Part shown: piece after piece, positions 17,279 to 56,209 of the stretch
Position numbering within the stretch: position 1 is the first letter of the stretch
Layout of the letters: the number at the start of each line of letters is the position of its first letter
From: Fictibacillus arsenicus
GTDB lineage: Bacteria; Bacillota; Bacilli; Bacillales; Fictibacillaceae
Assembly (NCBI RefSeq): GCF_001642935.1
Contig: NZ_CP016761.1
Span: forward strand, 1,798,001 to 1,862,000
Reading direction: 5' to 3'
DNA length: 64,000 nucleotides
Made by a program: the position numbers and the translations under genes
Notes under the pieces: generated by a model
Databases searched by the model: none
Seen by the model: only the letters and a program-made list of their open reading frames with translations
What the model was told of the DNA's origin: nothing

Positions 17279-17510
17279 AAAGGCTCTTTTCGTAATCTTT
17301 GTTGCTATTAGAAGACGTTGATATCCGCTCCAGGATGCTCGCTTTCCGCGGGGCGTGCGGTGAGCCCCCTAGGCTAATCAAGCCTGCCGGGGTCTCACCT
17401 GTCCCGCTACTCCCGCAGGAGTCTCGCACCTTGCGCTCCAATCAACAATTCAACGATGTTCCATTTAAAAAAACATTCAAAAGCAGCAAGCTTTTAGAAA
17501 ACAGCCTTTT
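17279..17510 (+). repeat. Dispersed MITE-like element, copy 1 (short form)
   Basis: 232 bases bounded by AAAGGCTCTTTTCGTAATC on the left and, inverted and imperfect, TTTTAGAAAACAGCCTTTT on the right. The core GCTTTCCGCGGGGCGTGCGG is shared with the other copies. It lies between the TPP riboswitch terminator and thiT, so the thiT leader must be transcribed through it. Apparent open frames inside it are repeat-derived. Confidence 0.85.
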
Positions 17511-17537
17511 CAAATCATCGATCGAGGAGGATAAAAG

Positions 17538-18107
17538 ATGAAAAACAATAACATTTTACTATTAACAGAAATTGCTATTATGGCTGCACTTTCATTGATT
17601 TTAGGACTTATAAAATTCAATGGTGTTTGGCCGCAAGGGGGTTCTGTCTCTCTTGAGATGGTGCCGATTTTTCTAATAGCATTCAGAAGGGGATTGAAAG
17701 CAGGGGTTTTTACAGGATTAGCAGTAGGATTGCTTCAATTGCTTGTAAATCCATATATCGTCCATCCTGCTCAGCTTATTTTAGATTACCCGCTTGCTTT
17801 TGCTTTAGCAGGTGTTGCAGGTGCATTTGCGCCGTCAATTACTCAAAATAAAGCAAAGAGAACTTTATTGATGCTTACAGGGATTTTTATTGGATGTGCC
17901 TTGAGACTTGCTTCACATGTATTATCGGGGGTTATTTTCTTTAGTGATTTTGCCGAAGAGATGAATGTATGGCTTTATTCAATCATGTACAACGGTTCGT
18001 TTATGGTCGTCATTTTTGGAATTACATCTCTAATCGTGATTTTTATAACTAACACTGCTCCAAGATTATTGCATGCAGCAAGAAAGGGATATCATCAGGC
18101 AGCATGA
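17538..18107 (+). CDS. thiT: Thiamine ECF transporter substrate-binding component ThiT (YuaJ)
   Basis: A 189-residue integral membrane protein of six hydrophobic segments, beginning LLLTEIAIMAALSLILGL. The thiamine-binding signature region includes NGVWPQGGSVSLEMVPIFL and NPYIVHPAQLILDYPLAF. ThiT works with the shared ECF energy-coupling module to import thiamine. The TPP riboswitch upstream and overlap with thiN support this assignment. GAGGAGG lies before the ATG. In B. subtilis the orthologue sits elsewhere; here it has joined the rpe-thiN-spoVM neighbourhood. Confidence 0.93.
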   Translation: MKNNNILLLTEIAIMAALSLILGLIKFNGVWPQGGSVSLEMVPIFLIAFRRGLKAGVFTGLAVGLLQLLVNPYIVHPAQLILDYPLAFALAGVAGAFAPSITQNKAKRTLLMLTGIFIGCALRLASHVLSGVIFFSDFAEEMNVWLYSIMYNGSFMVVIFGITSLIVIFITNTAPRLLHAARKGYHQAA

Positions 18108-18748
18108 AAATAAGAATTGTCGCCGGTGGTCCAGATCATCTGATCCCAGAACTTAAAAACTATGATTCCTCACCAGGAGATCTGTGGGTTGGCGTTGACA
18201 GAGGTACATTCATCCTTTTGCAGAAAGGGATAAAGCCTGCATATGCTTTCGGTGATTTTGATTCGGTTTCAGCAGCAGAAAAGGAGAATATACTAAAGTC
18301 AGATATTATCCTGAATGAATACCAGTCGGAAAAAGACCACACTGATATGGAATTAGCGCTTGAATGGGCAATGGATCAAAAACCAAAAGAAATACTATTA
18401 TTCGGCGCAACTGGAGGAAGACTGGATCACGAGATGATAAACATCCAGCAGCTCTATAGAACCATTTCTAGCAATGTTGAAGTTAAAGTAGTAGATCTTA
18501 AAAATGAAATCTCACTAAAGCTCCCTGGAAAATATACGATTGAAAGAGAGGATCTTTACTCCTATATTTCTTTCTTAGCTTTTCAAGGAGAAGTAAAAGG
18601 CATCACGCTAAAGGGATTCAAATATCCTTTAGAAAAAGCTTCCTTGAAGATGGGGTCTTCCCTCTGTATATCAAATGAGCTTGTAAATAAAAATGGTACT
18701 TATTCTTTCGACTCTGGCATAATATTGATGGTAAAGAGCCGTGATTAA
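18104..18748 (+). CDS. thiN: Thiamine pyrophosphokinase
   Basis: A 214-residue enzyme converting thiamine and ATP to TPP and AMP. Recognisable motifs are GVDRGTFILLQKGIKPAYAF-like substrate loop, GDFDSVS, SEKDHTDMELALEWA and FGATGGRLDHEM. It overlaps thiT by four bases (ATGA), making an uptake-plus-activation salvage pair under one TPP riboswitch. TPP, its product, would shut off its own expression. Confidence 0.95.
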   Translation: MKIRIVAGGPDHLIPELKNYDSSPGDLWVGVDRGTFILLQKGIKPAYAFGDFDSVSAAEKENILKSDIILNEYQSEKDHTDMELALEWAMDQKPKEILLFGATGGRLDHEMINIQQLYRTISSNVEVKVVDLKNEISLKLPGKYTIEREDLYSYISFLAFQGEVKGITLKGFKYPLEKASLKMGSSLCISNELVNKNGTYSFDSGIILMVKSRD

Positions 18749-18853
18749 AAAAATTACGGAAAACAGGTCCCGAGACACCTTTTTATAACACGGGGAATAA
18801 TGTATGTTAGGTTTTGCTCTTATCATTTTTTATGGGCCTGGAGGAGGGGTAAG

Positions 18854-18934
18854 ATGAAATTTTATACCATTAAACTTCCTAGATTCTTAGGGGGATTCGT
18901 ACGTGCCATCTTAGGTTCTTTTAAAAAAGGATAA
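18854..18934 (+). CDS. spoVM: Stage V sporulation protein M
   Basis: A 26-residue peptide beginning MKFYTIKLPRFLGGFVRAIL and ending GSFKKG, closely matching Bacillus SpoVM in length and sequence. SpoVM is an amphipathic helix that recognises the convex outer forespore membrane and recruits SpoIVA for coat assembly, and it inhibits FtsH. GGAGGAGGGG lies upstream of the ATG. Its place between thiN and rpmB is conserved in Bacillus. No SigmaE promoter was convincingly recognised in the 105 bases upstream. Confidence 0.96.
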   Translation: MKFYTIKLPRFLGGFVRAILGSFKKG

Positions 18935-18936
18935 CA

Positions 18937-18970
18937 AACAAAAAAAGCGCCCTGTGCGCTTTTTTTGTTT
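18937..18970 (+). terminator. Strong terminator after spoVM
   Basis: AAACAAAAAAAGCGC pairs with GCGCTTTTTTTGTTT around a five-base loop (about 18937-18970). The A tract on the left makes it potentially bidirectional. A repeat element begins at its right end. Confidence 0.9.
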
Positions 18971-19254
18971 GGCTGTTTTCGCAATACTTTGTTGCTTTTG
19001 AAAGTAGTTGATTTCCGTTACAGGATATTCGCTTTCCGCGGGGCGTGCGGTGAGCCTCCTTGACACTTTGTGTCATTAGGAGTCTCACCTGTCCCACTCG
19101 TCCCGCAGGACAAGGAAGGCTTCGGCAGCGTTACATCGCACGAAGAAAATGTGATTTTTCATTTTCGAGGAGTCTCGCACCTTGCACTCCATCCAACATG
19201 TCAATGAAGATATTAAAAACTACTCAAAGCACAAACTTTTAGAGAAGAGGCTTT
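18971..19254 (+). repeat. Dispersed MITE-like element, copy 2 (long form)
   Basis: Bounded by GGCTGTTTTCGCAATACTTT on the left and TTTTAGAGAAGAGGCTTTT on the right. It carries the conserved core plus a 61-base insert (19111-19171) placed after CCCGCAGGA. The same insert at the same point is found in copy 7. It begins immediately at the spoVM terminator. Confidence 0.85.
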
Positions 19255-19335
19255 TGTTTTTATAAAGATATTTTGTGAGGATATTTACGGTACGTGTTCT
19301 TAAATTTATTACACGTTTGCGCAAAATATATGTAA

Positions 19336-19428
19336 TTTCACGCAAAGAGGCTCTAGTTTCACGCGGGTTAGAAAGAGGTTTCACGCAGAATCTCTTTCTG
19401 ACCAAGCAGAACTGGTCTAATTCCACGC
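19336..19428 (+). repeat. Periodic array B: about 21-base period, word TTTCACGC
   Basis: TTTCACGC occurs exactly at 19336, 19357 and 19379, and as TTCCACGC at 19421. Spacings are 21, 22 and 42 (two periods). The stretch lies between repeat copy 2 and the rpmB terminator and has no coding signal. Confidence 0.55.
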
Positions 19429-19498
19429 ACGATGTGTAATAAGTGTCAAAAAAGCTGCACTAAAAAGTGTACGGCCTCTACATATATATTGAAAATAA

Positions 19499-19529
19499 AA
19501 AAAACAGCAGCTTCTGCTGCCGTTTTTTT
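19499..19529 (-). terminator. Terminator of rpmB, possibly bidirectional
   Basis: CAGCAGC and GCTGCTG-type arms with CTTCT between them are flanked by A and T tracts on both sides, so the hairpin works for the minus-strand rpmB and could stop + strand read-through. Confidence 0.85.
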
Positions 19530-19530
19530 A

Positions 19531-19719
19531 TTAAACGCGTTCTACTTTACCTGATTTAAGTGCACGAGCAGATACATATACGCGCTTAGGCTTTCCGTCC
19601 ACAAGAATGCGAACCTTTTGGACATTAGCTCCCCAGCTTTTCTTTGATTTGTTCATAGCGTGAGAACGCTTGTTTCCAGTTTTAGGTCCTTTTCCAGTAA
19701 TAAAACATTTACGAGCCAT
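19531..19719 (-). CDS. rpmB: 50S ribosomal protein L28
   Basis: A 62-residue basic protein beginning [20 protein letters not shown], with [20 protein letters not shown] near the C-terminus, matching bacterial L28. It is the only ribosomal protein gene on the minus strand here, as in B. subtilis. A GGAGG binding site lies upstream (forward CCTCC at 19730). It has its own promoter and terminator, so it is monocistronic. Confidence 0.96.
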
Positions 19720-19786
19720 AGTAGGTGAACCTCCTTTACAGCAAAAAAGCTTTGCATCAATTCAATCGTATGTTAAATACTAAATA

Positions 19787-19815
19787 ATATTAGCATGACT
19801 CTCTGAGCATTGCAA
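19787..19815 (-). promoter_or_regulatory. SigmaA promoter of rpmB
   Basis: On the minus strand TTGCAA (19815-19810), a 17-base spacer ending TGC and TAATAT (19792-19787) form a good promoter with an extended -10. Confidence 0.7.
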
Positions 19816-19846
19816 CATATTCATTATGGTTTTCAAGTAAATTTCC

Positions 19847-19875
19847 TTGACAATACTTTTTACATAGTGTGAAAT
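19847..19875 (+). promoter_or_regulatory. Putative SigmaA promoter for asp23-like gene and fakA
   Basis: A consensus TTGACA (19847-19852) is followed after 17 bases by TGAAAT (19870-19875), 78 bases before the gene. Divergent from the rpmB promoter. Confidence 0.55.
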
Positions 19876-19953
19876 GTAGTAGTCCTTTCAAAAAAACATA
19901 ATGTATAGTAAAATATTTGTTAGCCATTTAACAATTTAAAGGGGGATGTAAGC

Positions 19954-20316
19954 ATGTCCATTGAAATGAAAACAACCTATGGTCAAATTGATATTTCTAA
20001 TGAAGTGATTGCTACTATCGCTGGCGGTGCAGCAATTGATTGTTACGGAATTGTTGGCATGGCATCAAGAAAGCAATTAAAGGATGGATTAACTGAACTT
20101 TTAGGACGTGAAAATTTCTCCCGAGGGATCGTTGTCCGACAAGAGGAAGATGAAGTACATATTGATATGTATATCATTGTAAGCTACGGAACAAAGATTT
20201 CTGAAGTGGCTCATAATGTTCAGAACAAAGTGAAATATACCCTGGATCAAATGCTTGGATTGGCGGTTGACTCAGTCAATATCTATGTTCAGGGTGTCAG
20301 GGTGACAACCCCTTAG
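19954..20316 (+). CDS. yloU: Asp23/Gls24 family envelope stress protein YloU
   Basis: A 120-residue protein of the Asp23 family, recognised by the segment GQIDISNEVIATIAGGAAIDCYG early on and VNIYVQGVRVT at the end. Family members are abundant cytoplasmic proteins linked to envelope stress; the molecular role is poorly defined. AAAGGGGG precedes the ATG. It sits directly upstream of fakA with a 15-base gap, an arrangement conserved across Firmicutes, so the two are probably co-transcribed. Confidence 0.9.
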   Translation: MSIEMKTTYGQIDISNEVIATIAGGAAIDCYGIVGMASRKQLKDGLTELLGRENFSRGIVVRQEEDEVHIDMYIIVSYGTKISEVAHNVQNKVKYTLDQMLGLAVDSVNIYVQGVRVTTP

Positions 20317-20331
20317 TTAGGAGGAAGTTTT

Positions 20332-22005
20332 GTGTCTTTAAAAGTATTAGACGGAAAAAAGTTTGCAAAAATGGTGCTCGAGGGTGCTTCAAACTTATCA
20401 AGAAATGCAGCAATGGTCGATGCACTTAACGTATTTCCTGTACCAGATGGTGATACAGGAACAAACATGAACTTAACGATTACATCTGGTGCAAAAGAGG
20501 TTGAGAAAAACACTTCAAGTCAAATAGGCGCTGTAGCAAATGCGTTCGCTAAAGGGCTTTTAATGGGAGCAAGAGGGAACTCTGGCGTTATTTTATCACA
20601 GTTATTCAGAGGGTTCTCTAAAGCTATTGAAGGCAAAGAATCCATTACAGCGGTTGAGTTTGCTAATGCATTTGACAAAGGTGTAGAAACTGCATACAAA
20701 GCTGTTATGAAGCCTGTCGAAGGTACAATTTTAACAGTTGCAAAAGATGCTGCTAAAAAAGCAGTTAAAGAAGCAAAAAAATCAGATGATGTCCTTTATA
20801 TTATGAAGGAACTCGTTAAAGAATCTAAAGCTTCCTTAAACCGTACACCAGATCTTCTTCCTGTTTTAAAAGAAGTAGGAGTAGTAGATTCGGGCGGACA
20901 AGGTCTAGTCACTGTATATGAAGGCTTTTTAGCTGTATTAGAAGGAAAAGAACTGCCAAAAGTATCAGTAAATGCTCCTTCAATGGGTGAACTTGTCAAC
21001 GCGGAACATCACAAAGCTCAAATTCACATGAAAACTGAAGATATCCACTTTGGATACTGCACAGAGTTCATGGTGAAATTTGAATCAAATAAAATCAAAA
21101 ACAATCCATTTGATGAAACAAACTTCCGAAACGAGCTCGCAGAACATGGTGACTCACTTCTCGTTGTTGCGGATGATGATGTGGTAAAAGTACACATTCA
21201 TACAGAGCAGCCAGGCAACATGCTGACTCTTGCTCACCGTTATGGGAGTTTGATCAACATTAAGATTGAAAATATGCGTGAACAGCATTCGGCTATCTTA
21301 GAAAGTGAAAATGAAGTTATTCCTTCATACTCTCAGCCTGCTGAGAAAAAGAAAGAATACGGGATTGTAACAGTAGCTATGGGCGAAGGAATCGAAGAAA
21401 TGTTTTCTTCAATGGGAGCATCCGTTATCCAAGGCGGACAGACTATGAATCCTAGTACAGAAGACATTGTGCGTGCTATTTCTGAAGTGAATGCAGAAAA
21501 AGTATTCATTCTTCCTAACAACAGCAATATCATCATGGCTTCTGAACAGGCTGCTAGCGTTGTTGATGAAGAAGTTGTCATCATCCGCACTAAGACTGTT
21601 CCACAAGGCATCGCTTCCATCCTGGCGTTTAATCCTTCGGCAGATATGAAAGAAAACGAAAAGAAAATGAACGAAGCAATTACTTCTGTAAAATCCGGGC
21701 AAGTAACTTACGCTGTCAGAGATACATCAATCGATGGTGTTGAGATTGGTAAGGGTGACTTTATGGGGATTTCAGAGGGTAAAATCATCACTTCAAAGAC
21801 AAATAAGCTAGAAGTGACGAAAGAGCTTTTAGAAAAAATGATGGATGAAGATACAGAAATCGTAACCATCATTTATGGTGAAGATTCTTCTGAAGATGAA
21901 GCGCAAGAACTTGCCGATTTCATCGAAGAAAAATTCCCCGATGCTGAAGCTGAGATCCATAACGGAAAACAGCCGATCTACTCATTTATCCTTTCAGTTG
22001 AGTAA
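20332..22005 (+). CDS. fakA: Fatty acid kinase catalytic subunit FakA (YloV)
   Basis: A 557-residue kinase that phosphorylates fatty acids held by a FakB protein, feeding exogenous acids into phospholipid synthesis through PlsX and PlsY. The N-terminal DhaL-like ATP-binding domain shows VFPVPDGDTGTNMNLT and GARGNSGVILSQLFRGF; a middle domain and a C-terminal DegV-like domain follow. The start is GTG with GGAGG upstream. plsX lies 4.7 kb downstream in the window, consistent with shared lipid metabolism. The stop codon abuts repeat copy 3. Confidence 0.92.
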   Translation: MSLKVLDGKKFAKMVLEGASNLSRNAAMVDALNVFPVPDGDTGTNMNLTITSGAKEVEKNTSSQIGAVANAFAKGLLMGARGNSGVILSQLFRGFSKAIEGKESITAVEFANAFDKGVETAYKAVMKPVEGTILTVAKDAAKKAVKEAKKSDDVLYIMKELVKESKASLNRTPDLLPVLKEVGVVDSGGQGLVTVYEGFLAVLEGKELPKVSVNAPSMGELVNAEHHKAQIHMKTEDIHFGYCTEFMVKFESNKIKNNPFDETNFRNELAEHGDSLLVVADDDVVKVHIHTEQPGNMLTLAHRYGSLINIKIENMREQHSAILESENEVIPSYSQPAEKKKEYGIVTVAMGEGIEEMFSSMGASVIQGGQTMNPSTEDIVRAISEVNAEKVFILPNNSNIIMASEQAASVVDEEVVIIRTKTVPQGIASILAFNPSADMKENEKKMNEAITSVKSGQVTYAVRDTSIDGVEIGKGDFMGISEGKIITSKTNKLEVTKELLEKMMDEDTEIVTIIYGEDSSEDEAQELADFIEEKFPDAEAEIHNGKQPIYSFILSVE

Positions 22006-22006
22006 C

Positions 22007-22208
22007 ATTGTTGCTTTGGAAGTGGTTGATTTCCGCTCCAGGGTGCTCGCTTTCCACGGGGTGTGCGGTGAGCCTCCTGCCGCTTTGCGCCATTAGGAGT
22101 CTCCACCTGACCGCTCGTCCCGTAGGAGTCTCGAACCTTGCGCTCCAATCAACTTGCATCTGATGAGAATTGAAAAAGCCAAAAGCAACAATCTTTTATA
22201 AAAGAGCC
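22007..22208 (+). repeat. Dispersed MITE-like element, copy 3 (left end truncated)
   Basis: The conserved core is present, but the left terminal repeat is cut to about ATTGTTGCT and begins one base after the fakA stop. The right end AACAATCTTTTATAAAAGAG is intact. A hairpin terminator lies eight bases beyond it. Confidence 0.8.
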
Positions 22209-22215
22209 AAAATTA

Positions 22216-22270
22216 AAAGTATTCTCTCTTAAACTTAAAGTGTGATAAAGTTAAGAGGGAATACTTATTT
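22216..22270 (+). terminator. Long hairpin terminator after fakA
   Basis: AAGTATTCTCTCTTAA (22217-22232) pairs with TTAAGAGGGAATACTT (22251-22266) with one G-U pair, then ATTTTATT. It would terminate fakA transcripts that have crossed repeat copy 3. Confidence 0.7.
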
Positions 22271-22303
22271 TATTGGGAAAAAACGCAATCGAAGGAGATC
22301 GTC

Positions 22304-22966
22304 ATGAAATATAAAAGTGTTTTTGATATTATCGGTCCCATCATGATCGGACCATCAAGTTCACATACAGCCGGTGCTGCTAGAATTGGAAGAGTAGCAA
22401 GACATTTATTTGGCAGAAAGCCGGAGTTTGCCAAGATTTCTTTTTACGGTTCTTTTGCGAAAACGTATCGCGGTCATGGAACTGATGTTGCTATAGTCGG
22501 TGGAATATTAGACTATGACACATTTGATACCCGGATTGTGGATGCGCTTACAATAGCGAAGCAGGAAGGCATTGAAGTATCGATGACTGAGGAAGATGCA
22601 GTCACTGACCACCCTAATACGGCAAGAGTAATTATTGGTGATAAGAATGGGCAGATTGAAGTTGTAGGAATTTCAATTGGCGGCGGAAAGATCGAAATTA
22701 CAGAATTGAACGGATTCAGTTTGAGGCTTTCGGGCAACCATCCGGCACTTCTTATCGTTCATAATGACAAGTACGGAGCTATTGCAGGTGTTGCAAACAT
22801 TTTGGCAAAGCATGAGATTAACATTGGACATATGGAAGTTTCACGTAAGGAAAAAGGAAAAGAAGCATTAATGGTGATTGAAATTGATCAGAATGCGGAT
22901 GAAGTTATCATCAATGAATTGAATTCTCTTCCTATCGTCCAGCAAGTCGTAAAGATACATGATTAA
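22304..22966 (+). CDS. sdaAB: L-serine ammonia-lyase, iron-sulfur dependent, beta subunit
   Basis: A 220-residue subunit of the heterodimeric L-serine dehydratase, which deaminates serine to pyruvate. The motif IGPIMIGPSSSHTAGAARIG is diagnostic of the beta domain. A C-terminal ACT domain (HNDKYGAIAGVANILAKHEI onward) probably senses an amino acid. GAAGGAG precedes the ATG. The alpha subunit follows after 14 bases. Confidence 0.95.
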   Translation: MKYKSVFDIIGPIMIGPSSSHTAGAARIGRVARHLFGRKPEFAKISFYGSFAKTYRGHGTDVAIVGGILDYDTFDTRIVDALTIAKQEGIEVSMTEEDAVTDHPNTARVIIGDKNGQIEVVGISIGGGKIEITELNGFSLRLSGNHPALLIVHNDKYGAIAGVANILAKHEINIGHMEVSRKEKGKEALMVIEIDQNADEVIINELNSLPIVQQVVKIHD

Positions 22967-22980
22967 GAGGTGAGGAACGA

Positions 22981-23868
22981 ATGTTTCGTAATGTAGCTGA
23001 ATTAATAGAATTAGCTGAATCAAAGAAAAGCAAAATTGCAGATATAATGATTGAACAAGAGATGGAAGTAACAGGCCGTTCAAGAGAAGAAGTTACTTCA
23101 TTCATGGACCGGAATCTAACGGTAATGGAAGAAGCGGTATTACGAGGGATAACAGAGGACGTTAAATCTCATTCTGGTTTAACTGGAGGAGATGGAAAGC
23201 TTTTACAGGCGTATATTAAGTCTGGTAAATCCCTTTCCGGAGATCTGATGCTTGATGCAGTAAGTAAAGCTATGGCAACAAATGAAGTAAATGCTGCAAT
23301 GGGAACAATCTGTGCGACTCCAACTGCGGGCTCTGCAGGCGTTGTCCCAGGAACTTTATTTGCATTAAAAGGAAAACTTAATCCTACTCGGGAACAGATG
23401 ATTGAATATTTATTTACAGCAGGTGCATTCGGATTTGTTGTAGCTAATAACGCATCTATTTCAGGAGCAGCAGGAGGCTGTCAAGCAGAGGTTGGATCAG
23501 CTACTGGTATGGCAGCGGCAGCGATTGTAGAATTAGCTGGAGGAACACCTTCACAGGCAGCAGAGGCAATGGCTATCGCCTTAAAGAACATGCTTGGTTT
23601 AGTTTGTGATCCTGTAGCAGGTCTTGTAGAGGTTCCGTGTGTAAAAAGAAACGCGATGGGAGCAAGCAATGCAATTGTTGCTGCAGACATGGCTTTAGCT
23701 GGCATCGTAAGCAGAATTCCTTGTGATGAAGTAATAGATGCCATGTATAAGATTGGACAGTCAATGCCTTCTGCACTTCGTGAAACCGCTCAAGGCGGTC
23801 TTGCTGCTACTCCAACTGGAAGAGAGCTTGAGGCAAAAATATTCGGCATTCCGCTAAATGAGAAGTAA
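22981..23868 (+). CDS. sdaAA: L-serine ammonia-lyase, iron-sulfur dependent, alpha subunit
   Basis: A 295-residue catalytic subunit binding a [4Fe-4S] cluster. Candidate cluster cysteines lie in GGCQAEVGSATG, LVCDPVAGL and EVPCVKRNAMG. The segment CATPTAGSAGVVPG is also conserved. GAGGTGAGG precedes the ATG. With sdaAB it forms a two-gene unit; recG begins two bases after the stop. Confidence 0.95.
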   Translation: MFRNVAELIELAESKKSKIADIMIEQEMEVTGRSREEVTSFMDRNLTVMEEAVLRGITEDVKSHSGLTGGDGKLLQAYIKSGKSLSGDLMLDAVSKAMATNEVNAAMGTICATPTAGSAGVVPGTLFALKGKLNPTREQMIEYLFTAGAFGFVVANNASISGAAGGCQAEVGSATGMAAAAIVELAGGTPSQAAEAMAIALKNMLGLVCDPVAGLVEVPCVKRNAMGASNAIVAADMALAGIVSRIPCDEVIDAMYKIGQSMPSALRETAQGGLAATPTGRELEAKIFGIPLNEK

Positions 23869-23870
23869 TT

Positions 23871-25907
23871 ATGATTACGGAATCTATAACTGCCGTTCAA
23901 GGAATCGGTGAGAAAAAAGCAGAAGAATTAGCAAGTATGGGGATTTTTAATGTCCAGGACCTACTTGAGTATTTGCCTTATCGATACGAAGATTATCAGA
24001 AAAAAGATTTATCAGAGATCGCACATGACGAAAAAGCTACCATTGAAGGGAAGGTTCATTCTGAGCCTTCTTTGCGTTATTTTCCGAAGAAAAAATCAAG
24101 ACTCTCGTTTCGGATGCTGATCGGCAAGTATTTAATTACTGCTGTAATCTTTAATCGTCCATTTTTAAAAAGTCAAATAACCCTTGGACAATCTTTGACC
24201 ATCACAGGTAAATGGGACCGTAATAAAATGACGTTAACAGTGAGTGATGTTCATTTTGGAACATTTTCCGATGACAGAAAAATAGAACCTGTATACTCTG
24301 TTAAAGGTACATTGCACGGAAAAACGATGCGAAAATTCATTTTTCAAGCGTTCAAACAATTTTCCGGCCAGATTCCGGACCCATTGCCAGAAAAACTTCG
24401 TGAAGTATATCGTTTGCCTGAAAAAGAAGCGGCTTTAAAAATGATGCATTTTCCTGAAAGTTTCCAAGTCCTAAAGGCTGGGAGAAGAAGACTCGCTTAC
24501 GAGGAGCTTTTATTTTTTCAGTTTAAGATGCAGATTTTCAGAAAGTGGAACAGACAGCAATCTGAAGGTGCTTCTCTATTATACGACAGGTCTAGAGTTG
24601 ATCTTTTTATTCAGTCGCTCCCTTTTCAGCTTACAGAAGCCCAGCTGCGGGTAGTAGAAGAGATTTTAAAGGATCTTTCTGATACGAGCAGAATGAACAG
24701 GCTTCTGCAAGGAGACGTCGGCTCGGGAAAAACAGTAGTAGCTGCGATCGCCCTATATGCTGCTGTCACAGCAAACAGACAGGGTGCACTGATGGTCCCT
24801 ACAGAAATTCTTGCTGAACAGCACTTTCAATCTTTGAAAGAGCTTTTTAAGCCATTTGGCATAACCGTGGCTTTGTTAACAAGTTCAGTTAAAGGGAAAC
24901 TTCGAAAAGAAACCCTTAGATTGTTAAGTGAGGGTGAGATTCAGATCATGGTAGGGACGCATGCATTGATTCAAGAAGAAGTGGATTTTAAAAATCTCGG
25001 ATTAGTCATAACAGATGAGCAGCATAGGTTTGGTGTAAATCAGCGCAGAGTTCTCAGGGAAAAAGGAGAAAAGCCGGATGTCCTTTTTATGACAGCTACT
25101 CCTATACCTCGTACACTTGCCATTTCTGCGTTCGGCGATATGGATGTTTCTACAATAGATGTTATGCCAGCAGGAAGAAAACCTATCATTACGCATTGGG
25201 CAAAGCATGGAATGTTAGAACGTGTTCTTGATTTTATCAGAAAAGAGATTGTTAATGGCAGGCAAGCATACGTTATTTGTCCTCTTATTGAAGAATCAGA
25301 AAAAGTAGATGTCCAAAACGCTATAGATGTACATGCCCAATTAAGCCAATACTTTCATGAATACGAAGTAGGGTTAATGCATGGCAGACTTCATTCTTCG
25401 GAGAAAGATGAAGTGATGCGGCAGTTCGCTGCAAACCAATGCCAGATCCTCGTTTCAACAACTGTTGTTGAGGTAGGTGTGAATGTACCTAATGCTACCA
25501 TCATGGTCATTTATGATGCTGAAAGATTTGGATTATCACAGCTTCACCAGTTGCGAGGAAGGGTTGGCCGTGGCAGTGAACAATCATATTGTGTGCTTAT
25601 CGCAGATCCCAAAACAGAAGAAGGCCAAGAACGCATGAGAATCATGACTGAGACGACGAACGGTTTTGAGCTTTCAGAAAAAGACTTAGAGCTTCGCGGG
25701 CCGGGAGACTTCTTTGGCAATAAACAAAGCGGTCTGCCAGCATTTAAAGTTGCTGACCTCGTGCATGATTATCGAATTTTAGAGACAGCAAGAAATGATG
25801 CTGCTAAACTTGTAAATTCAGATGAATTTTGGACTGACGAAATGTACGCATTAATTAGAGAAATACTTACCAATGAAGGTGTGCTGGATAAGGAAAGGCT
25901 CGATTAA
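23871..25907 (+). CDS. recG: ATP-dependent DNA helicase RecG
   Basis: A 678-residue branch-migration helicase that remodels stalled forks and recombination intermediates. It has an N-terminal wedge OB domain, then Walker A LQGDVGSGKTVVAAIAL, the DEQH box in VITDEQHRFGVNQR, motif III TATPIPRTL, and motif VI LHQLRGRVGRGSEQSYC. Length is normal. The start follows the sdaAA stop within two bases. Confidence 0.96.
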   Translation: MITESITAVQGIGEKKAEELASMGIFNVQDLLEYLPYRYEDYQKKDLSEIAHDEKATIEGKVHSEPSLRYFPKKKSRLSFRMLIGKYLITAVIFNRPFLKSQITLGQSLTITGKWDRNKMTLTVSDVHFGTFSDDRKIEPVYSVKGTLHGKTMRKFIFQAFKQFSGQIPDPLPEKLREVYRLPEKEAALKMMHFPESFQVLKAGRRRLAYEELLFFQFKMQIFRKWNRQQSEGASLLYDRSRVDLFIQSLPFQLTEAQLRVVEEILKDLSDTSRMNRLLQGDVGSGKTVVAAIALYAAVTANRQGALMVPTEILAEQHFQSLKELFKPFGITVALLTSSVKGKLRKETLRLLSEGEIQIMVGTHALIQEEVDFKNLGLVITDEQHRFGVNQRRVLREKGEKPDVLFMTATPIPRTLAISAFGDMDVSTIDVMPAGRKPIITHWAKHGMLERVLDFIRKEIVNGRQAYVICPLIEESEKVDVQNAIDVHAQLSQYFHEYEVGLMHGRLHSSEKDEVMRQFAANQCQILVSTTVVEVGVNVPNATIMVIYDAERFGLSQLHQLRGRVGRGSEQSYCVLIADPKTEEGQERMRIMTETTNGFELSEKDLELRGPGDFFGNKQSGLPAFKVADLVHDYRILETARNDAAKLVNSDEFWTDEMYALIREILTNEGVLDKERLD

Positions 25908-25910
25908 TTC

Positions 25911-25939
25911 TTGAAAGATGAATACTGATACTATATACT
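25911..25939 (+). promoter_or_regulatory. SigmaA promoter of the fapR operon
   Basis: TTGAAA (25911-25916), a 17-base spacer and TATACT (25934-25939). It starts four bases after the recG stop and is followed directly by the FapR box. Confidence 0.8.
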
Positions 25940-25943
25940 ACTA

Positions 25944-25960
25944 TTAGTACCAGCTCTTAA
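25944..25960 (+). promoter_or_regulatory. FapR operator
   Basis: TTAGTACCAGCTCTTAA matches 13 of 17 positions of the B. subtilis FapR box TTAGTACCTGATACTAA. It covers the predicted transcription start of the fapR operon, a position suited to repression relieved by malonyl-CoA or malonyl-ACP. Confidence 0.8.
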
Positions 25961-29380: not shown

Positions 29381-29605
29381 AAAGGCTAGTTTCTAAAAGA
29401 TTGTTGCTTCTTGTCTTATTTTGTCTCCCTTGTCAAGTTGATAGGAGTGTAAGGTGCGAGACTCCAGCGGGATCAGTGTGACAGGTGAGACTCCTAAGGG
29501 CGCATGGCGCCGAGGAGGCTCACCGCACGCCCCGCGGAAAGCGAGCATCCTGAAACGGAGATCAACTACTTACAAAGGCAACAATGATTTTTGCAAAAAC
29601 AGACT
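29381..29605 (-). repeat. Dispersed MITE-like element, copy 4 (short form, reversed)
   Basis: A 225-base copy in reverse orientation, starting AAAGGCTAGTTTCTAAAAG and ending in GCAAAAACAGACT. It fills most of the 329-base gap between fabG and acpP. Beyond it only a CCTCTA/TAGAGG hairpin near 29624-29642 and the acpP binding site are seen. Confidence 0.85.
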
Positions 29606-31280: not shown

Positions 31281-31572
31281 AGGCTCTTATCTAATAGATT
31301 GTTTTTTGAAGTTCCTTCGTCGACAATTTGATTGGAGCGCAAGGTGCGTGCCTACCACATGAGAAGCTTCTCGCTAGGCATGCGACGAGGAAGCTCACAT
31401 CGGTAGCATTTACTTGTAGACGCAGGAGCAAGGATACTTCCATGAAGCGGTCAGGTGAGACCATTCAATGTCGCAAAGCGCCGAGTGGGCTCACCGCACA
31501 CCCCGCGGAAAGCGAGCATCCTGGAGCGGAAATCAATCCTTTCAAATAGCAACAAAGTTTACGAAAACAGTC
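31281..31572 (-). repeat. Dispersed MITE-like element, copy 5 (variant with a different insert, reversed)
   Basis: Ends AAGGCTCTTATCTAATAG and ACGAAAACAGTC match the family, and the core is present at 31488-31520 in reverse. Between the outer CAAGGTGCG (31339-31347) and the inner GGTCAGGTGAGAC (31449-31461) lies about 100 bases unlike the insert of copies 2 and 7. Located between the DUF1128 gene and smc. Confidence 0.8.
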
Positions 31573-38952: not shown

Positions 38953-39182
38953 AAAAGGTTTTTATCTAAAAGATTGTTGCTTAAGGTCTTTTTTTTCATT
39001 CTCATCCTTGACATGTTGATTGGAGTGAAAGGTGCGAGACTCCTGCGGGATTAGCGGGACAGGTGAGACTCCTAAGGGCGCATAGCGCCGAGGAGGCTCA
39101 CCGCACGCCCCGCGGAAAGCGAGCATCCTGTAACGGAAATCAACTACTTTCAAAAGCAACAAAGTATTGTGAAACAGCCTTT
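38953..39182 (-). repeat. Dispersed MITE-like element, copy 6 (short form, reversed)
   Basis: Ends AAAAGGTTTTTATCTAAAAG and GTGAAACAGCCTTT are inverted repeats. The core is present in reverse at 39094-39130. It starts six bases after the khpA terminator and fills most of the 351-base gap to rimM, where ylqD is usually found. A weak TTTAAA (N18) TATGAT promoter would have its -35 at the element end. Confidence 0.87.
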
Positions 39183-47640: not shown

Positions 47641-47680
47641 ATATTACAAGAGGTGTGTTCTGCATCTCTAACATCGTGAG

Positions 47681-47707
47681 AAGCTCCCAGAAATAGGGGG
47701 CTTTTTC
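47681..47707 (+). terminator. Terminator after sucD
   Basis: AGCTCCC (47682-47688) pairs with GGGGGCT (47696-47702), with one G-U pair, followed by TTTTC. Confidence 0.72.
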
Positions 47708-47745
47708 ACTTTAATTAATCAATGATTCATGAGGGGGAAAAGGAT

Positions 47746-48612: not shown

Positions 48613-48639
48613 CCGTTTTCATTTAAATTAGGAAACAGT

Positions 48640-48669
48640 TTGACAAAAGCAGATACATTATTTAATAAT
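48640..48669 (+). promoter_or_regulatory. SigmaA promoter of topA
   Basis: Consensus TTGACA (48640-48645), an 18-base spacer and AATAAT (48664-48669), 43 bases before topA. Confidence 0.65.
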
Positions 48670-48711
48670 AGGGAAGATTTCACTAAACCCTTAAAGGGGG
48701 ATAAACTGTAA

Positions 48712-50787
48712 ATGGAAAAATACTTAGTCATTGTTGAGTCTCCCGCAAAAGCAAAGACGATAAAAAAATATTTAGGGAGCAAATATGACGTAAAAGCATC
48801 TATGGGACATGTTCGTGATCTGCCCAGAAGCCAGACCGGCGTAGATGTAGAATCAAATTATGAACCCAAATACATTACAATCCGAGGAAAAGGTCCAATA
48901 TTGAAGGACTTGAAAACAGCAGCCAAAAAAGCGAAACAAATCTTTCTCGCAGCTGACCCGGATCGTGAAGGTGAAGCAATCGCATGGCATCTTGCTCACA
49001 GTTTAGAGATGGATTTAGATTCTGATTGCCGAGTTGTATTTAATGAGATTACTAAAACCGCGATAAAAGATTCATTTAAAAGACCGAGAAAAATCAATAT
49101 GGACTTAGTAGATGCCCAGCAAGCCAGAAGAGTTCTTGACAGACTTGTAGGGTACAAAGTCAGCCCGTTATTATGGAAGAAAATTAAAAAGGGTTTAAGT
49201 GCAGGACGTGTACAGACTGTAGCAGTCCGGTTGATTGTTGAACGCGAAAAAGAAATTGAAGCTTTTCAGCCAGAAGAATATTGGAAGATCAAAGGAATAT
49301 TCAGTGCTTCGGGCGAAGATTTTGAAGCTCAGTACTATGGACTTAATGGCAAGAAACAAGAGCTTTCTAATGAAAATGAAGTAAAAGATAACCTGAGTAA
49401 AATTAAAGGAAAATCCTTTACTATTGAATCTGTACAGAAGAAAGAACGAAAAAGAAATCCTTCACCGCCATTCATCACTTCTTCCCTGCAGCAGGAAGCT
49501 GCAAGAAAGCTTAATTTCAGAGCGAAGAAAACGATGATGCTCGCACAGCAATTATATGAAGGGATTGACCTTGGAAAAGAAGGTACAGTCGGTTTGATCA
49601 CATATATGCGTACTGACTCTACCCGCATCTCTGATACTGCAAAAAATGAAGCTTCGGAGTTTATTGCTAATGAATTCGGAAAACAATACGTGAACAGCTC
49701 GAGAGCTGAAAAGAAGGCAGGAAAGAATGCTCAGGATGCACATGAAGCCATTCGTCCTACTTCTGTTATGTATCATCCAAAAGATTTGAAAACCTATTTA
49801 TCCAGAGACCAGCTCCGTCTTTACAAGCTTATTTGGGAACGTTTTCTGGCAAGTCAGATGTCTTCAGCAGTACTGGACACTATGACTGTAGATCTTCAAA
49901 ACAATGGTGTAACATTCCGTGCAACAGGGTCAAAAGTGAAGTTCCCTGGATTCATGAAGGTATATGTAGAGGGCAATGATGATGGCAAAAAAGAAGAAGA
50001 CCGCATCCTTCCTGATGTACAAGAAGGAATGAAGGTTGATAAGAAAGACTTGGAGCCAACACAGCACTTTACACAGCCGCCGCCGCGCTATACTGAGGCA
50101 AGACTGGTACGGACGATGGAAGAGTTGGGGATAGGGAGACCTTCTACGTATGCTCCGACTCTCGATACGATCCAGAAAAGAGGGTATGTTGCTTTAGACG
50201 ACAAGAAATTCGTTCCAACAGAACTTGGAGAACTTGTCTTAGAGATGACCCTTGAGTTTTTCCCTGAAGTATTCAATGTTGAATTTACTGCCAAGATGGA
50301 AAGTGATCTCGATGAAGTTGAAGAGGGGAATATAGACTGGATCAAGATCATTGATGAATTCTATAAAAACTTTGAAAAGAAACTTAAAATTGCAGAAGCA
50401 GAAATGCAAAAAGTAGAAATTAAAGATGAGCCAGCAGGGGAAAACTGTGAGAAATGCGGACATGAGATGGTCTATAAGATGGGCCGTTTCGGCAAATTCA
50501 TGGCATGCTCAAATTTCCCGGATTGCAGAAACACCAAGCCGATCGTTAAAGATATAGGCGTTGAATGTCCTTCTTGTCATAAAGGATCAATTGTCGAAAG
50601 AAAAAGCAAAAAGAAACGAGTTTTCTATGGCTGCAACAGATATCCTGACTGTGAGTTCGTTTCATGGGACAAACCAATTGCAAGAACATGTCCAAAATGT
50701 AATAGCATGCTAGTAGAAAAGAAAACGAAAAAAGGAAAAGTCGTTCAATGTGTGTCTTGCGACTATTCCGAAGAGGAAGCAAAGTAA
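48712..50787 (+). CDS. topA: DNA topoisomerase I
   Basis: A 691-residue type IA topoisomerase relaxing negative supercoils. The TOPRIM domain ([34 protein letters not shown]) precedes the active-site tyrosine, about Tyr298, in [14 protein letters not shown]. Three C-terminal zinc-ribbon repeats follow: CEKCGHEM with CSNFPDC, CPSCHKG with CNRYPDC, and CPKCNSM with CVSC. AAAGGGGG precedes the ATG. Confidence 0.97.
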
Positions 50788-50798
50788 GGAGTTTTTCC

Positions 50799-52106
50799 AT
50801 GAGCCACCAACATGTTAACGTAATCGGAGCGGGTCTTGCAGGCAGTGAAGCTGCTTGGCAGATCGCAAGCCGAGGAATAAAAGTTAAATTATATGAGATG
50901 AGACCGGTTAGACAGACACCGGCTCATCACACTGAAAAATTTGCAGAGCTTGTATGTTCAAACTCATTGCGGGCAAACACATTAACAAATGCTGTTGGTG
51001 TTTTAAAAGAAGAAATGAGAAAATTGAATTCCGTTATCATTTCATCTGCAGATGATTGTGCAGTTCCTGCAGGCGGAGCATTAGCTGTTGACCGTCACGA
51101 GTTTGCGGGCCTTGTAACAGAACGCGTTAAGAACCACCCTAATGTAGAAGTAATAACAGAAGAAGTAACAGAAATTCCTGATGGCCCTACGATTATCGCT
51201 ACCGGTCCTTTAACTTCTGATAATTTATCAAAAGCTTTAAACTCTTTAACTGGCGAAGAATATTTATATTTTTACGATGCTGCAGCTCCTATCATTGAAG
51301 TAGATAGCATCAATATGGATAAGGTCTATTTGAAATCTCGCTATGATAAAGGTGAAGCAGCTTATTTAAACTGTCCGATGACAGAGGAGGAATTCGACCG
51401 TTTTTACGAAGCTTTAATCACTTCAGAAACTGTTCCTTTGAAAGAGTTTGAAAAAGAAATCTTTTTTGAGGGCTGTATGCCTGTTGAAGTAATGGCTAAG
51501 CGAGGAAAGAAGACTCTTCTTTTCGGACCGATGAAACCAGTTGGCCTTGAAGATCCGAAAACAGGAAAGATCCCATATGCTGTCGTTCAGTTAAGACAAG
51601 ACAATAGTGCAGGAACGCTGTATAATATAGTAGGGTTTCAAACACACTTGAAATGGGGACCACAAAAAGAGCTTATTCAGCTTATTCCCGGTTTAGAAAA
51701 TGCAGAGGTTGTACGATACGGTGTTATGCACCGCAACACATTCTTAAATTCACCTAAACTCTTAAAAGACACATATCAGCTAAAAGAAAGAGATAATCTT
51801 TTCTTTGCAGGGCAGATGACAGGTGTTGAAGGATATGTGGAAAGTGCTGCATCTGGACTGATCGCTGGTATAAATGCAGCAAAACTCGTAAAAGGCGAGG
51901 AGTTAGCAGTTTTTCCTAGAGAAACTGCAATCGGAAGTATGGCTTATTATATTACGACTGCAAATCCTGATAATTTCCAGCCGATGAATGCAAACTTCGG
52001 GTTGATGCCTCCGCTTGAAAAAAGGATTAAAAACAAGCAGGAAAGAAACACGGCAATAGCAGAACGGGCATTGGAAACTATTCAGAATTTTATAACAAAT
52101 TTGTGA
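50799..52106 (+). CDS. trmFO: Folate-dependent tRNA (uracil-54-C5)-methyltransferase TrmFO (Gid)
   Basis: A 435-residue flavoprotein making m5U54 in tRNA with methylene-THF. The FAD-binding start is [20 protein letters not shown]; conserved are [35 protein letters not shown] and [23 protein letters not shown] in front of the ATG at 50799 sets the start; the open frame upstream overlaps topA without a binding site. Confidence 0.95.
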
Positions 52107-52119
52107 ACATCTATTGCTT

Positions 52120-52156
52120 TAGCCCCTAAGTTGTGATACGATTTAGGGGCTTTGTG
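52120..52156 (+). terminator. Hairpin between trmFO and xerC
   Basis: AGCCCCTAA (52121-52129) pairs with TTAGGGGCT (52143-52151). The T tract is poor (TTGTG) and the xerC binding site begins four bases later, so it may be a partial terminator or affect xerC translation. Confidence 0.55.
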
Positions 52157-52167
52157 AGGTGTATGGA

Positions 52168-53070
52168 ATGGAATCAGAACGCCAGCTCGTGGTGGATTTT
52201 CTTAATTACTTGATGATTGAGAAGAACAGTTCACCATTTACGATCGAACACTATGAAAAAGATATTAATGATTTTACTTCTTTTTTGAAACAGCAAGCAA
52301 TCGAAGGATTCGCTGCTGTTTCTTATGTTTTAGTTAGACATTATCTCGTGACGCTTCATGAAAAGAAGTATGCGAGAAATACTGTTGCTAGAAAGATATC
52401 TTCCATGAGAAGTTTTTACCGTTTCTTGAATCGGGAAAAAATCGTGGAAGAAAACCCTTTTGCAATGGCCTCTCTGCCTAAAAAAGCAAAAATGCTTCCT
52501 CAATTTCTTTATGAAAAAGAGTTGGAGAAGCTTTTTAACGTGTCTGACATCAGCACGCCAATCGGACAAAGAAATCAGGCCATTCTCGAATTGCTTTATG
52601 GCACGGGTATTCGTGTAAGCGAATGCTGCAAACTGCAGCTGAAAGATCTTGACCTATTCGTAGAAGCTGCATTAGTTAAGGGAAAAGGGAAAAAGGAAAG
52701 ATATGTTCCTATCGGTTCTTTTGCCAAGGAAGCATTAGAAAGATATATCAGCGATGGCCGTAAACTTTTACTTGAAAAAACAGAAAATAGGTCAGATTCC
52801 CTGTTTTTAAATTATAAAGGGGAACCTTTAAGTGCGAGAAGCGTAAGAAACATATTGAATAAAATCATTGAAGAATCGTCGCTCAATATACATATCAGTC
52901 CACACGTATTAAGGCATACTTTCGCGACACACATGCTCAATGAAGGTGCAGACTTAAGAGCAGTTCAGGAACTGCTGGGACACTCACAGCTATCATCTAC
53001 ACAAGTCTACACACACGTAACGAAAGACCATTTGAAAAAAATCTATAATAATGCGCATCCTCGAGCATAA
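52168..53070 (+). CDS. xerC: Site-specific tyrosine recombinase XerC (CodV)
   Basis: A 300-residue recombinase that resolves chromosome dimers at dif with XerD. Catalytic residues visible are Arg149 (GTGIRVSECCKL), the HxxR in HVLRHTFATHML, His in LLGHSQLSSTQV and nucleophile Tyr281 in VYTHVTK. The ATG at 52168 follows TGAGGTG by six bases; an in-frame GTG at 52159 overlaps that site. It heads the xerC-hslV-hslU-codY operon. Confidence 0.95.
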   Translation: MESERQLVVDFLNYLMIEKNSSPFTIEHYEKDINDFTSFLKQQAIEGFAAVSYVLVRHYLVTLHEKKYARNTVARKISSMRSFYRFLNREKIVEENPFAMASLPKKAKMLPQFLYEKELEKLFNVSDISTPIGQRNQAILELLYGTGIRVSECCKLQLKDLDLFVEAALVKGKGKKERYVPIGSFAKEALERYISDGRKLLLEKTENRSDSLFLNYKGEPLSARSVRNILNKIIEESSLNIHISPHVLRHTFATHMLNEGADLRAVQELLGHSQLSSTQVYTHVTKDHLKKIYNNAHPRA

Positions 53071-53094
53071 AAAACAAAAAGGAGGGATTTTTCG

Positions 53095-53634
53095 ATGTCA
53101 ACTTTTCATGCAACCACAATCTTTGCTATTCAGCACAATGGGGAAGCTGCAATGACTGGAGATGGCCAGGTAACTTTCGGCAATGCAGTCGTAATGAAAC
53201 ATACTGCCAAAAAGGTGAGAAAGCTGTATGGCGGGAAAGTACTTGCTGGTTTTGCCGGTTCTGTAGCAGATGCTTTTACACTTTATGAAAAATTTGAAAG
53301 TAAACTTGAAGAATACAGCGGCAACTTACAGCGTGCATCTGTTGAAATGGCAAAAGAATGGCGTACTGATCAAGTTTTAAGAAAACTCGAAGCCTTGCTG
53401 ATCGTTATGAACACTGAGCATATGCTGCTTATTTCAGGAACAGGTGAAGTAATTGAACCTGATGACGGCATTCTAGCTATTGGCTCAGGCGGAAATTATG
53501 CTCTTGCAGCAGGAAGAGCATTGAAAAATAATGCTCCTCAGCTTTCTGCTAAAGAAATAGCGCTCGCTTCATTGCAAACAGCCGGTGAGATTTGTGTCTA
53601 CACAAATACGGAGATCGTATTAGAAGAACTGTAA
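53095..53634 (+). CDS. hslV: ATP-dependent protease proteolytic subunit HslV (ClpQ/CodW)
   Basis: A 179-residue proteasome-like peptidase. The N-terminus [20 protein letters not shown] keeps the extended, serine-containing Bacillus form (MSSFHATT in B. subtilis) rather than the MTT start of E. coli. GDGQVTFG and [20 protein letters not shown] are conserved. AGGAGGG precedes the ATG. HslU follows 25 bases later; together they form a two-ring protease. Confidence 0.95.
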
Positions 53635-53659
53635 AATCCTATATAAGGAGTGATTTTGT

Positions 53660-55054
53660 TTGAACAGTCAACTAACTCCAAGGCAGATCGTTGAAAAACT
53701 CGATCAATACATTATTGGACAAAAAGATGCTAAAAAAGCAGTGGCGGTGGCTCTCAGAAACCGTTACAGAAGAAGCCTGCTGGATGATAAACTTCGCGAT
53801 GAGGTTTCTCCAAAAAATATTTTGATGATCGGTCCGACTGGTGTCGGTAAAACTGAAATTGCAAGAAGGCTTGCCAAACTTGCTCAAGCCCCTTTTATTA
53901 AAATAGAAGCTACGAAATTTACTGAGGTCGGCTATGTAGGACGTGATGTCGATTCCATGGTTCGTGACTTGGTCGAAACATCTGTGAGGCTTGTGAAAGA
54001 GCTGAAAATGAATGAAGTCAAAGACAAGGCAGAGCAGAATGCTAATAAGCGTTTAGTCGAACTTCTCGTACCTGGTAAAAAAACAGAAACAAACTATAAG
54101 AATCCTCTTGAAATGTTTTTTGGCGGAGGGAATCAGAACCAGGAACAGTCAGCACAGCAGGATGACGAAGGGAACCTAAAGCAAAAACGAAATCAGATGG
54201 CTCAAAAATTAGCTCTAGGAGAAATGGAAGATCATCTTGTAACAGTGGAAGTAGATGAGCAAACCCCCTCAATGCTTGATATGTTTCAGGGCTCTGGCCT
54301 TGAACAGGTTGGAATGAATATGCAAGACATGCTGGGCGGAATTATGCCTAAGAAAAAGAAAAAAAGAAAACTTACAGTTCGTGAAGCGAGAAAAGTTCTG
54401 ACACAGGACGAAGCAGCAAAATTAATCGATATGGATGACGTAACGAGTGAAGCTGTTTATAAGACAGAACAAACAGGTATTATATTTATAGATGAGATTG
54501 ATAAGATTGCCGGAAAGAATCAAAATTCTGCAGATGTCAGCAGAGAAGGTGTTCAAAGGGATATACTTCCGATCGTAGAAGGATCCACTGTAATGACGAA
54601 ATATGGTTCAATTAAGACTGATCATATTCTTTTTATTGCAGCAGGAGCTTTTCACATGGCAAAACCTTCAGATCTCATTCCTGAGCTTCAAGGAAGATTC
54701 CCAATCCGGGTAGAATTAAATAGCTTGTCTGTTGAAGATTTTACACGTATATTAATAGAGCCTGATAATGCGATTGTAAAACAGTACAAAGCTCTATTAA
54801 GTACAGAAGGTATAAATGTTGAATTTTCTGACGATGCTATTGCTAAGATTGCAAGTATCGCATTTGAAGTCAATCAAGACACCGAAAATATAGGTGCAAG
54901 AAGGCTTCATACCATATTGGAGCGCTTACTCGAAGACTTGTCTTTTGAAGCGCCTGATATCAGTTTAGATCAAATTACCATTACACCCGAGTATGTAGAA
55001 GAAAAACTGGCTAATATCGCAAAGAATAAGGATTTAAGCCAATATATTTTATAG
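53660..55054 (+). CDS. hslU: ATP-dependent protease ATPase subunit HslU (ClpY)
   Basis: A 464-residue AAA+ unfoldase feeding HslV. Walker [20 protein letters not shown], the intermediate domain (about 110-240, with low-complexity Gln-rich and Lys-rich stretches), Walker [14 protein letters not shown] and sensor region [20 protein letters not shown] are clear. The start is TTG with AAGGAGTG seven bases upstream. codY follows at 24 bases. Confidence 0.96.
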
Positions 55055-55078
55055 GATGCAGTAGGAGGAAGAAATAAA

Positions 55079-55858
55079 ATGAATTTATTAAACAAAGCAA
55101 GAAGTATTAACTCAATGTTACAGCAAACAGGTGGAAAACAAGTAAACTTTAAAGAAATGGCTGAAACACTTAGCTCAGTAATCGGTGCTAATATTTTCGT
55201 AGTCAGCCGCAGAGGAAAATTATTAGGAACTGCTCTTAAACAAGATATTGAAAATGAGCGTATGAAAAAGATGATCCAAGATCGTCAATTTCCTACTGAT
55301 TACACGAAGAACCTTTTCAACATTACAGAATCAATGGCAAATATCGATGTTGAGAGTGATTACACTGCTTTCCCTGTTGAGAACAAAGATTTATTCTCGA
55401 CAGGTTTAACAACGGTCGTACCTATCGTCGGCGGCGGGGAAAGACTTGGAACTCTAATCCTCTCCAGACTGTCAACGTCGTTTGAAGAAGATGATCTAGT
55501 ATTAGCAGAGTATGGTGCTACAGTAGTTGGAATGGAGATCCTTCGCGAGAAAGCGGAAGAGATTGAAGAAGAAGCTAGAAATAAAGCTGTAGTTCAAATG
55601 GCGATCAGTTCATTATCATATAGTGAGCTTGAAGCGATTGAACATATCTTTGAAGAATTAGAAGGTAATGAAGGCCTGCTTGTAGCGAGTAAAATTGCTG
55701 ACCGTGTAGGTATTACAAGATCAGTAATCGTAAATGCTCTTCGCAAGCTGGAGAGTGCTGGAGTTATCGAATCTCGTTCACTTGGAATGAAGGGAACGTA
55801 CATCAAAGTATTAAATGATAAGTTCTTGCTTGAACTTGAGAAATTAAAAACTTCTTAA
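55079..55858 (+). CDS. codY: GTP-sensing transcriptional pleiotropic repressor CodY
   Basis: A 259-residue global regulator responding to branched-chain amino acids and GTP. An N-terminal GAF domain (about 1-155) is followed by a linker and a winged helix-turn-helix with [25 protein letters not shown] precedes the ATG. Possible targets in the window are the CodY-like box at sucC and a weak site before flgB. Confidence 0.97.
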
Positions 55859-55870
55859 TCATAAAAGTTC

Positions 55871-55906
55871 AAAAACCAATCCGGAGAGGGTTGGTTTTTT
55901 TTTTTG
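55871..55906 (+). terminator. Terminator after codY
   Basis: AAAAACCAATCC pairs with GGGTTGGTTTTT, with a G-U pair, followed by a long T run. Repeat copy 7 begins at its right edge. Confidence 0.88.
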
Positions 55907-56182
55907 GTCTCAAACATTGATGCTTTTGAAAGTGGTTGCTTTCCGTTCCAGGTACTCGCTTTCCGCGGGGCGTGCGGTGAGCCTCCTCGCGCTTTGCGCG
56001 TTCAGGAGTCTCACCTGTCCCGCTCGTCCCGCAGGACAAGGAAGGCTTCGACAGCGGTACATCGCACGAAGAAAATGTTGATTTTCATTTTCGAGGAGTC
56101 TCGCACCTTGCTCTCCAATCAACTTGTCAATGAAGAGAATGAAAAAAGACCGAAAGCAACTATTTTTTAGAGAGGAGCCCTT
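55906..56182 (+). repeat. Dispersed MITE-like element, copy 7 (long form)
   Basis: Begins GGTCTCAAACATTGATGC at the codY terminator and ends TTTTTTAGAGAGGAGCCC. It has the conserved core and the same 61-base insert (56037-56097) as copy 2, including a GAAAATG/CATTTTC hairpin. Confidence 0.85.
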
Positions 56183-56209
56183 CGTAATCTTTGTTGCTCT
56201 TGAAAGTGG
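56174..56209 (+). repeat. Truncated left end of a second element
   Basis: Head-to-tail with copy 7, the bases GAGCCCTTCGTAATCTTTG followed by TTGCTCTTGAAAGTGGT match the left terminal sequence of the family and stop before the core. Confidence 0.65.

Follow-up and report, generated by a model that had tools for sequence, protein, structure and literature searches.

The window, a stretch of 64,000 nucleotides from the chromosome of Fictibacillus arsenicus, contains seven copies of a short palindromic element in two forms. Form A is ~222 bp long and is represented by copy 1 (17282-17506, + strand, core 17317-17446), copy 3 (22004-22207, +, core 22025-22153, ~13 left bases missing), copy 4 (29385-29602, -, core 29437-29566) and copy 6 (38957-39180, -, core 39015-39144). 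Form B, at ~280 bp, carries an additional arm within the core's right half, between CCCGCAGGA and GAGTCTCGC, and is seen in copy 2 (18971-19251, +, core 19007-19110 and 19168-19196 with the extra arm between), copy 5 (31283-31571, -, core 31410-31536 plus a weak segment at 31328-31398) and copy 7 (55908-56178, +, core 55935-56036 and 56094-56123, ~8 left bases missing). Both forms look old, since a copy on a Paenibacillus urinalis plasmid has an insert at the point where the form B arm sits. Scanning the window with a core model returned 10 core segments, every one of them within these seven elements. The family of the original prediction was thus recovered with no other members in the window and with refined bounds, and its nested inverted pairs and near-invariant, GC-rich core were as first described. 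Copy 1 landed between a TPP riboswitch (17105-17212, with a terminator-like hairpin) and the next gene, and copy 2 sits within the T-run of a terminator-like hairpin. Just after copy 7, at 56181-56210, comes a truncated left end (TTCGTAATCTTTGTTGCTCTTGAAAGTGGT).

Beyond the window the family proved far larger than seven copies. A single copy used as query against its own genome gave 42 listed matches, with 40 of 358 first-look candidates scored, and the best match besides the query itself (E 4e-66) was far beyond chance. In 464,000 contiguous bases of the chromosome, two profile models gave 45 hits, equivalent to ~40 elements, and 33 cores were longer than 90 model positions. Scaled up from these 464 kb, the genome-wide total is perhaps ~350 elements (~290-390). 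Flanks were analysed in a set of 61 pieces (452,660 bases), namely the window and 60 stretches picked for containing a left end, which held 95 non-redundant hits, 61 of them nearly complete and 60 with usable flanks. Over these 60 copies the element length was 207-312, with defined terminal inverted repeats and no transposase gene inside.

The element ends are GGCTGTTTTCG.../...GAAAACAGCC, and the element proper begins with GGCT and ends with AGCC. Terminal inverted repeats with defined ends are present as predicted, but the leading AAA (and TTT) that had been counted with them belongs to target DNA, since the flank match over 60 copies peaked (5.98 of 8) just outside GGCT...AGCC, at a length of 8. 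Target-site duplications of 8 bp were perfect in 19 of the 60 copies and agreed in at least 7 of 8 positions in 28; shuffled flank partners gave ~5%, with a maximum of 15% in 1000 shuffles. The duplications are variable and AT-rich, for example AAATAAAA, TAATAAAA and TTAATTAA. A strict end pattern, which gave 32 forward hits versus 12 for the reversed pattern, detected 16 end pairs in the 464 kb (two overlap), of which 12 enclosed a complete core, 3 a partial core and 1 none. Under this pattern 22 of the 33 cores had no detected end pair; either wear is frequent among the copies or the pattern is too strict.

Thirty full elements were comparable with at least one relative. Four of these (own-stretch positions 119456, 156580, 197282 and 198971), including window copies 1 and 2, were missing from both sister genomes, G006 and G014, where the gaps measured -7 to -16. 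The single target copy was plain at 119456 (TTAATTAA) and at 198971 (TTTTGTTT; single in G006), and less plain at 156580 and 197282. At further own-stretch sites (17773, 100369, 178423 and 284242) the element was missing irregularly. Copy 3 was absent from G006, and G014 has an inverted core hit at that place; copy 4 has an element at the corresponding place in G006, G014 and G009. The element-free sites in the sister genomes indicate that the family moved after the split from the sister species, at ~5-6% intergenic difference. Sites that are shared have not stayed constant either. Among 39 comparisons by position in which the gap was element-sized, 31 showed the same orientation, 6 the opposite orientation, 1 was mixed and 1 was without a hit, and at several shared sites the better-scoring form (A or B) differed although the flanks corresponded. 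Such changes of orientation and form could come either from replacement through recombination among copies or from re-insertion at hot spots.

The core, ~130 bp bounded by GTTGATT...AATCAAC, is a long hairpin of 48 pairs, 91.4% of whose cells were standard in a set of 51 cores (21 from this genome and 30 from elsewhere). Two-sided change occurred in 23 of the 48 pairs, against a mean of 9.7 after shuffling and 6-9 for slid versions, with compensatory replacements such as GGTGAG/CTCACC by GGAAG/CTTCC or GATGAG/CTCATC. Compensatory change was thus strong, and the core is not a case of conservation without covariation. Such covariation speaks for a structured-RNA core with a regulatory or mRNA-stabilising role, under host selection, with the MITE ends merely spreading it, an explanation that we nevertheless regard as improbable. 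Over all columns G-U cells also outnumbered A-C cells (115 versus 46), but this excess is owed to three U-G columns (in one, 50 of 51 sequences have U-G); without these columns the counts were 31 versus 46, and one-sided changes in positional pairs gave 42 versus 62. Rfam assigned the core to no family: the comparison over the window returned no described family for it, and copy 6 gave weak matches at chance level only. Between co-directional genes, 9 elements were oriented with transcription and 14 opposite to it. As evidence for an RNA function the wobble counts are mixed, while orientation and the Rfam comparison lend it no support. Lacking a G-U excess outside the three columns, and lying in either orientation to the genes, the core fits a DNA-level structure better than an RNA. 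Covariation could also come from template switching within the palindrome, which would involve no RNA function. Gene context was taken from simple ORF calls after 10 ORFs inside elements were dropped, and placed 23 of 37 elements in gaps between co-directional genes, 10 in convergent gaps and 4 in divergent ones (161, 35 and 50 for all gaps). Fewer insertions before promoters are what loss of harmful insertions would give.

Divergence from the sister species likewise argues against host selection on the core. In 13 pairs of the same form and orientation, hand-picked from the 31 same-orientation comparisons, the core differed at 140 of 1626 positions (8.6%) and the outer parts at 237 of 999 (23.7%; Fisher 6.5e-26), a contrast that taken by itself looks like strong selection. 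Ordinary intergenic DNA differed by 6.1% (117 regions, G006) and 4.8% (75 regions, G014), values biased low because only like-sized regions entered the control. The core difference is therefore not under the intergenic level of 4.8-6.1%, and purifying selection on the core at host level is not supported, since the control DNA differs less than the core. The fact that the whole element is unusually divergent at shared sites fits copy replacement and not constraint. Within the 464 kb, 21 form-A elements diverged from consensus by 10.8% in the core and 21.9% in the outer parts, and the two did not track each other (slope 0.03). The original prediction had offered recent spread or selection on structure; spread after the species split and pairing kept by compensatory change were both found, but selection by the host on single copies is unsupported.

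The core is distributed far more widely than the element. Our model R1 located it in at least 152 of 199 genomes of the order and at least 78 of 98 genera (17 candidates scored per genome), and a single copy as query had matches in 51 of 60 relatives. In 15 plasmid records (Priestia, Peribacillus, Bacillus and others) the match was confined to query positions 25-172 of 230, and among the matches listed for G050, G053 and G036 it was confined to query positions ~32-176; phage records gave no core match. In several genera the core is set between unrelated ends and the ends of the present MITE are missing. We distinguished several backbones. Backbone I, with GGCTGTTTTCG-type ends, is the MITE of this genome. 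Backbone II (GGCTCTGTTAAAC.../...CTTTAACACAGCC; G050 and G036) had perfect 8-bp duplications in 10 of 13 copies, and its ends resemble a second IS1595 subgroup (L129, L133, L135 and L136). Backbone III accounted for 9 of 10 fetched copies of G053, which share flanks; no clear inverted repeat was seen in it (none in 9 of the 10 copies, one poor hit). Of 14 copies fetched from G023 and G028, 13 had backbone IV (GGGGCTGTCCAAGAAG.../...GGACAGCCCC); these two genomes hold backbones I and IV side by side. The backbones on plasmids and the one labelled 'V' are represented by few copies. In G023 and G028 (L422-L435) some copies of backbone IV seemingly sit within palindromes, such as TGAAAAGC...GCTTTTCA in L426, a hint that their transposase may target hairpins. 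On plasmid pA of Peribacillus sp. R9-11 (L492:2150-3843), a core has a CAGACTGTAGACAAAC hairpin on one side and an IS1182 transposase gene on the other, and may lie within that IS.

Comparison between backbones separated the interior from its surroundings. The left 19 bases agreed by 11-36% and the right by 19-56%, as against 79-90% for the cores. The right-flank agreement of 54-56% is that of backbone I with IV, which suggests that backbone IV took its core from I together with some bases beyond the core. In a tree of 111 cores the backbone label changed at least 11 times (rows labelled 'other' excluded); the tree, built on 130 columns, is weakly resolved, with 50 of 86 inner branches open, and the label 'V' and some 'I' labels come from loose patterns. 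The backbone IV cores of G023 and G028 sat among the backbone I cores of the same genomes, and the backbone III cores of G053 adjoined backbone I cores of G096, G129 and G157, which have the same family code. If the family were an ordinary MITE, core and ends would have one history, and the unlike ends found elsewhere would reflect old divergence. The pairing of ends and core within this genome, where 15 of the 16 detected end pairs in the 464 kb (two overlap) enclose a complete or partial core, agrees with that account, but the differing ends of backbones I, II and IV with their sharp borders at GTTGATT/AATCAAC, and the coexistence of I and IV in G023 and G028, make it decidedly improbable. 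An order-wide core module borne by the unlike backbones I, II and IV is well supported, and core and ends have separate histories.

No transposase had been visible, and this holds for the whole genome as far as the ISL3 and IS1595 families are concerned, neither of which gave a match anywhere in it. An IS1595 query protein from the appropriate subgroup again had no match in this genome; a short fragment (67% identical) was found in G006, and G012 (45%) and G015 (42%) had IS1595 members of another kind. Transposases sharing the MITE termini were found in other genomes. In Alkalihalobacillus bogoriensis the sequences GGCTGTTTTCGTAAGGATTGTGGC and GGCTGTTTTCGTATAGATTGTTGC flank an IS1595 transposase, with a duplication that agrees in 7 of 8 positions, and the L130/L140 transposase, set between MITE-like ends, is IS1595 by NF033547 (203.9 bits, cut-off 75). 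Named genomes held 264 relatives; among the best 80 loci of these 264, 38 had both ends MITE-like in at least 17 of 24 positions, and 36 of the 38 had exact 8-bp duplications. One end of the element in Metalysinibacillus jejuensis (L152) was identical to the MITE consensus over 24 bases. The core string CCGCGGGG was inside none of the 38 matched IS1595 elements as bounded. To judge from these shared ends, the missing transposase probably belongs to the IS1595 family. The inverted repeats, the 8-bp duplications, the empty sites in the sisters and the occurrence of these ends on an IS family in other genomes bear out the description of the repeats as MITE-like, and the view that they are genuine MITEs with IS1595-type ends is well supported.

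REP elements, which are intergenic palindromes present many times per genome, are tied to RAYTs, and mobilisation of a REP-like element by a RAYT (Y1) transposase would agree with the RAYT-like gene in this genome and with Y1 matches in 53 of 60 relatives and, at least one each, in all 18 searched genomes of the genus. Yet the Y1 loci and 20 RAYT stretches that were fetched gave no core hit at E 1e-5, inverted repeats of at least 12 were absent from two of three RAYT stretches (the third had one), the core but not Y1 was matched in G021, G025, G027 and G039, and the 8-bp duplications indicate another type of enzyme, all of which leaves this explanation very improbable. The present family differs from REP/RAYT systems in having no link to a RAYT gene and in its ends and duplications, which are of another type; a RAYT/REP link was rejected, as no core was found near a RAYT gene in the fetched stretches. 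A RAYT-like Y1 transposase gene is located at L382:3308-3868 (186 aa). An ISL3-family mobiliser, which the general features of that family had suggested to us at first, deserves next to no credence: several ISL3 loci likewise have GG ends and 8-bp duplications, but ISL3 gave no match in 18 genomes of the genus and its best listed ends matched in at most 15 of 24 positions, versus 18-24 for the 38 IS1595 loci, and ISL3 was rejected as the source of the ends.

A MITE is usually taken to be an IS copy that has lost its interior, with a single IS as its source. The present elements resemble IS1595-family MITEs in being short and gene-less, with inverted repeats and 8-bp duplications common to an IS1595 element, but differ in that the interior is, as far as seen, not a deleted IS and that the core is common to MITEs with other ends. 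Literature searches, core-string text included, gave no account of this MITE family among the matches listed, subscription papers lying outside their scope. In the descriptions available to us, bcr1-bcr3 of the Bacillus cereus group are high-copy intergenic repeats likened to MITEs (PMC6542083, PMC3446304), and bcr1 is restricted to that group and has a TTTAT motif (PMC6542083). By that description bcr1 is set apart from our family, with its variable AT-rich 8-bp duplications, no TTTAT motif and an order-wide core. Bhal-1 of Bacillus halodurans, as described, is likewise an intergenic stem-loop repeat (74 bp, 36(32) copies; PMC2267715) for which that description gives no IS link; given this likeness in description, part of the present core might already have been seen there.

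We consider it likely that each copy is a two-part element, an IS1595-moved backbone with an independent hairpin core common to unrelated MITE backbones. The outside, ~35 bases on the left and ~58 on the right with GGCTGTTTTCG-type inverted repeats, is a non-autonomous backbone, which an IS1595 transposase of the matching subgroup would move into AT-rich sites with 8-bp duplications. The inside is a ~130-bp GC-rich interrupted hairpin, which several unrelated MITE backbones would have taken up and amplified. Since cores of unlike backbones cluster by host lineage, the most likely way for the core to change backbone is recombination or template switching among elements that share a genome. The hairpin most likely acts at the DNA level, aiding the spread of the element and not the host at each site, possibly by joining the two ends on single-stranded DNA or by making insertions more tolerable. 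A bolder proposal, which we put forward tentatively and think rather unlikely, is that the core is a hyper-parasite, a gene-less hairpin that passes repeatedly between backbones and outlives any one transposase across the order; single-strand or template-switch transfer at GTTGATT/AATCAAC would be its route.

The two-part reading means that interior and ends are separate evolutionary units, as seen from the core in at least 78 of 98 genera and from the unlike backbones where flanks were read. It opens the question of what a gene-less interior contributes to the success of a MITE. It also shows that a repeat can covary strongly and yet not be a functional RNA. For the organism itself, the site of copy 1, element-free in two sister genomes, provides a natural before/after pair for the output of the riboswitch.
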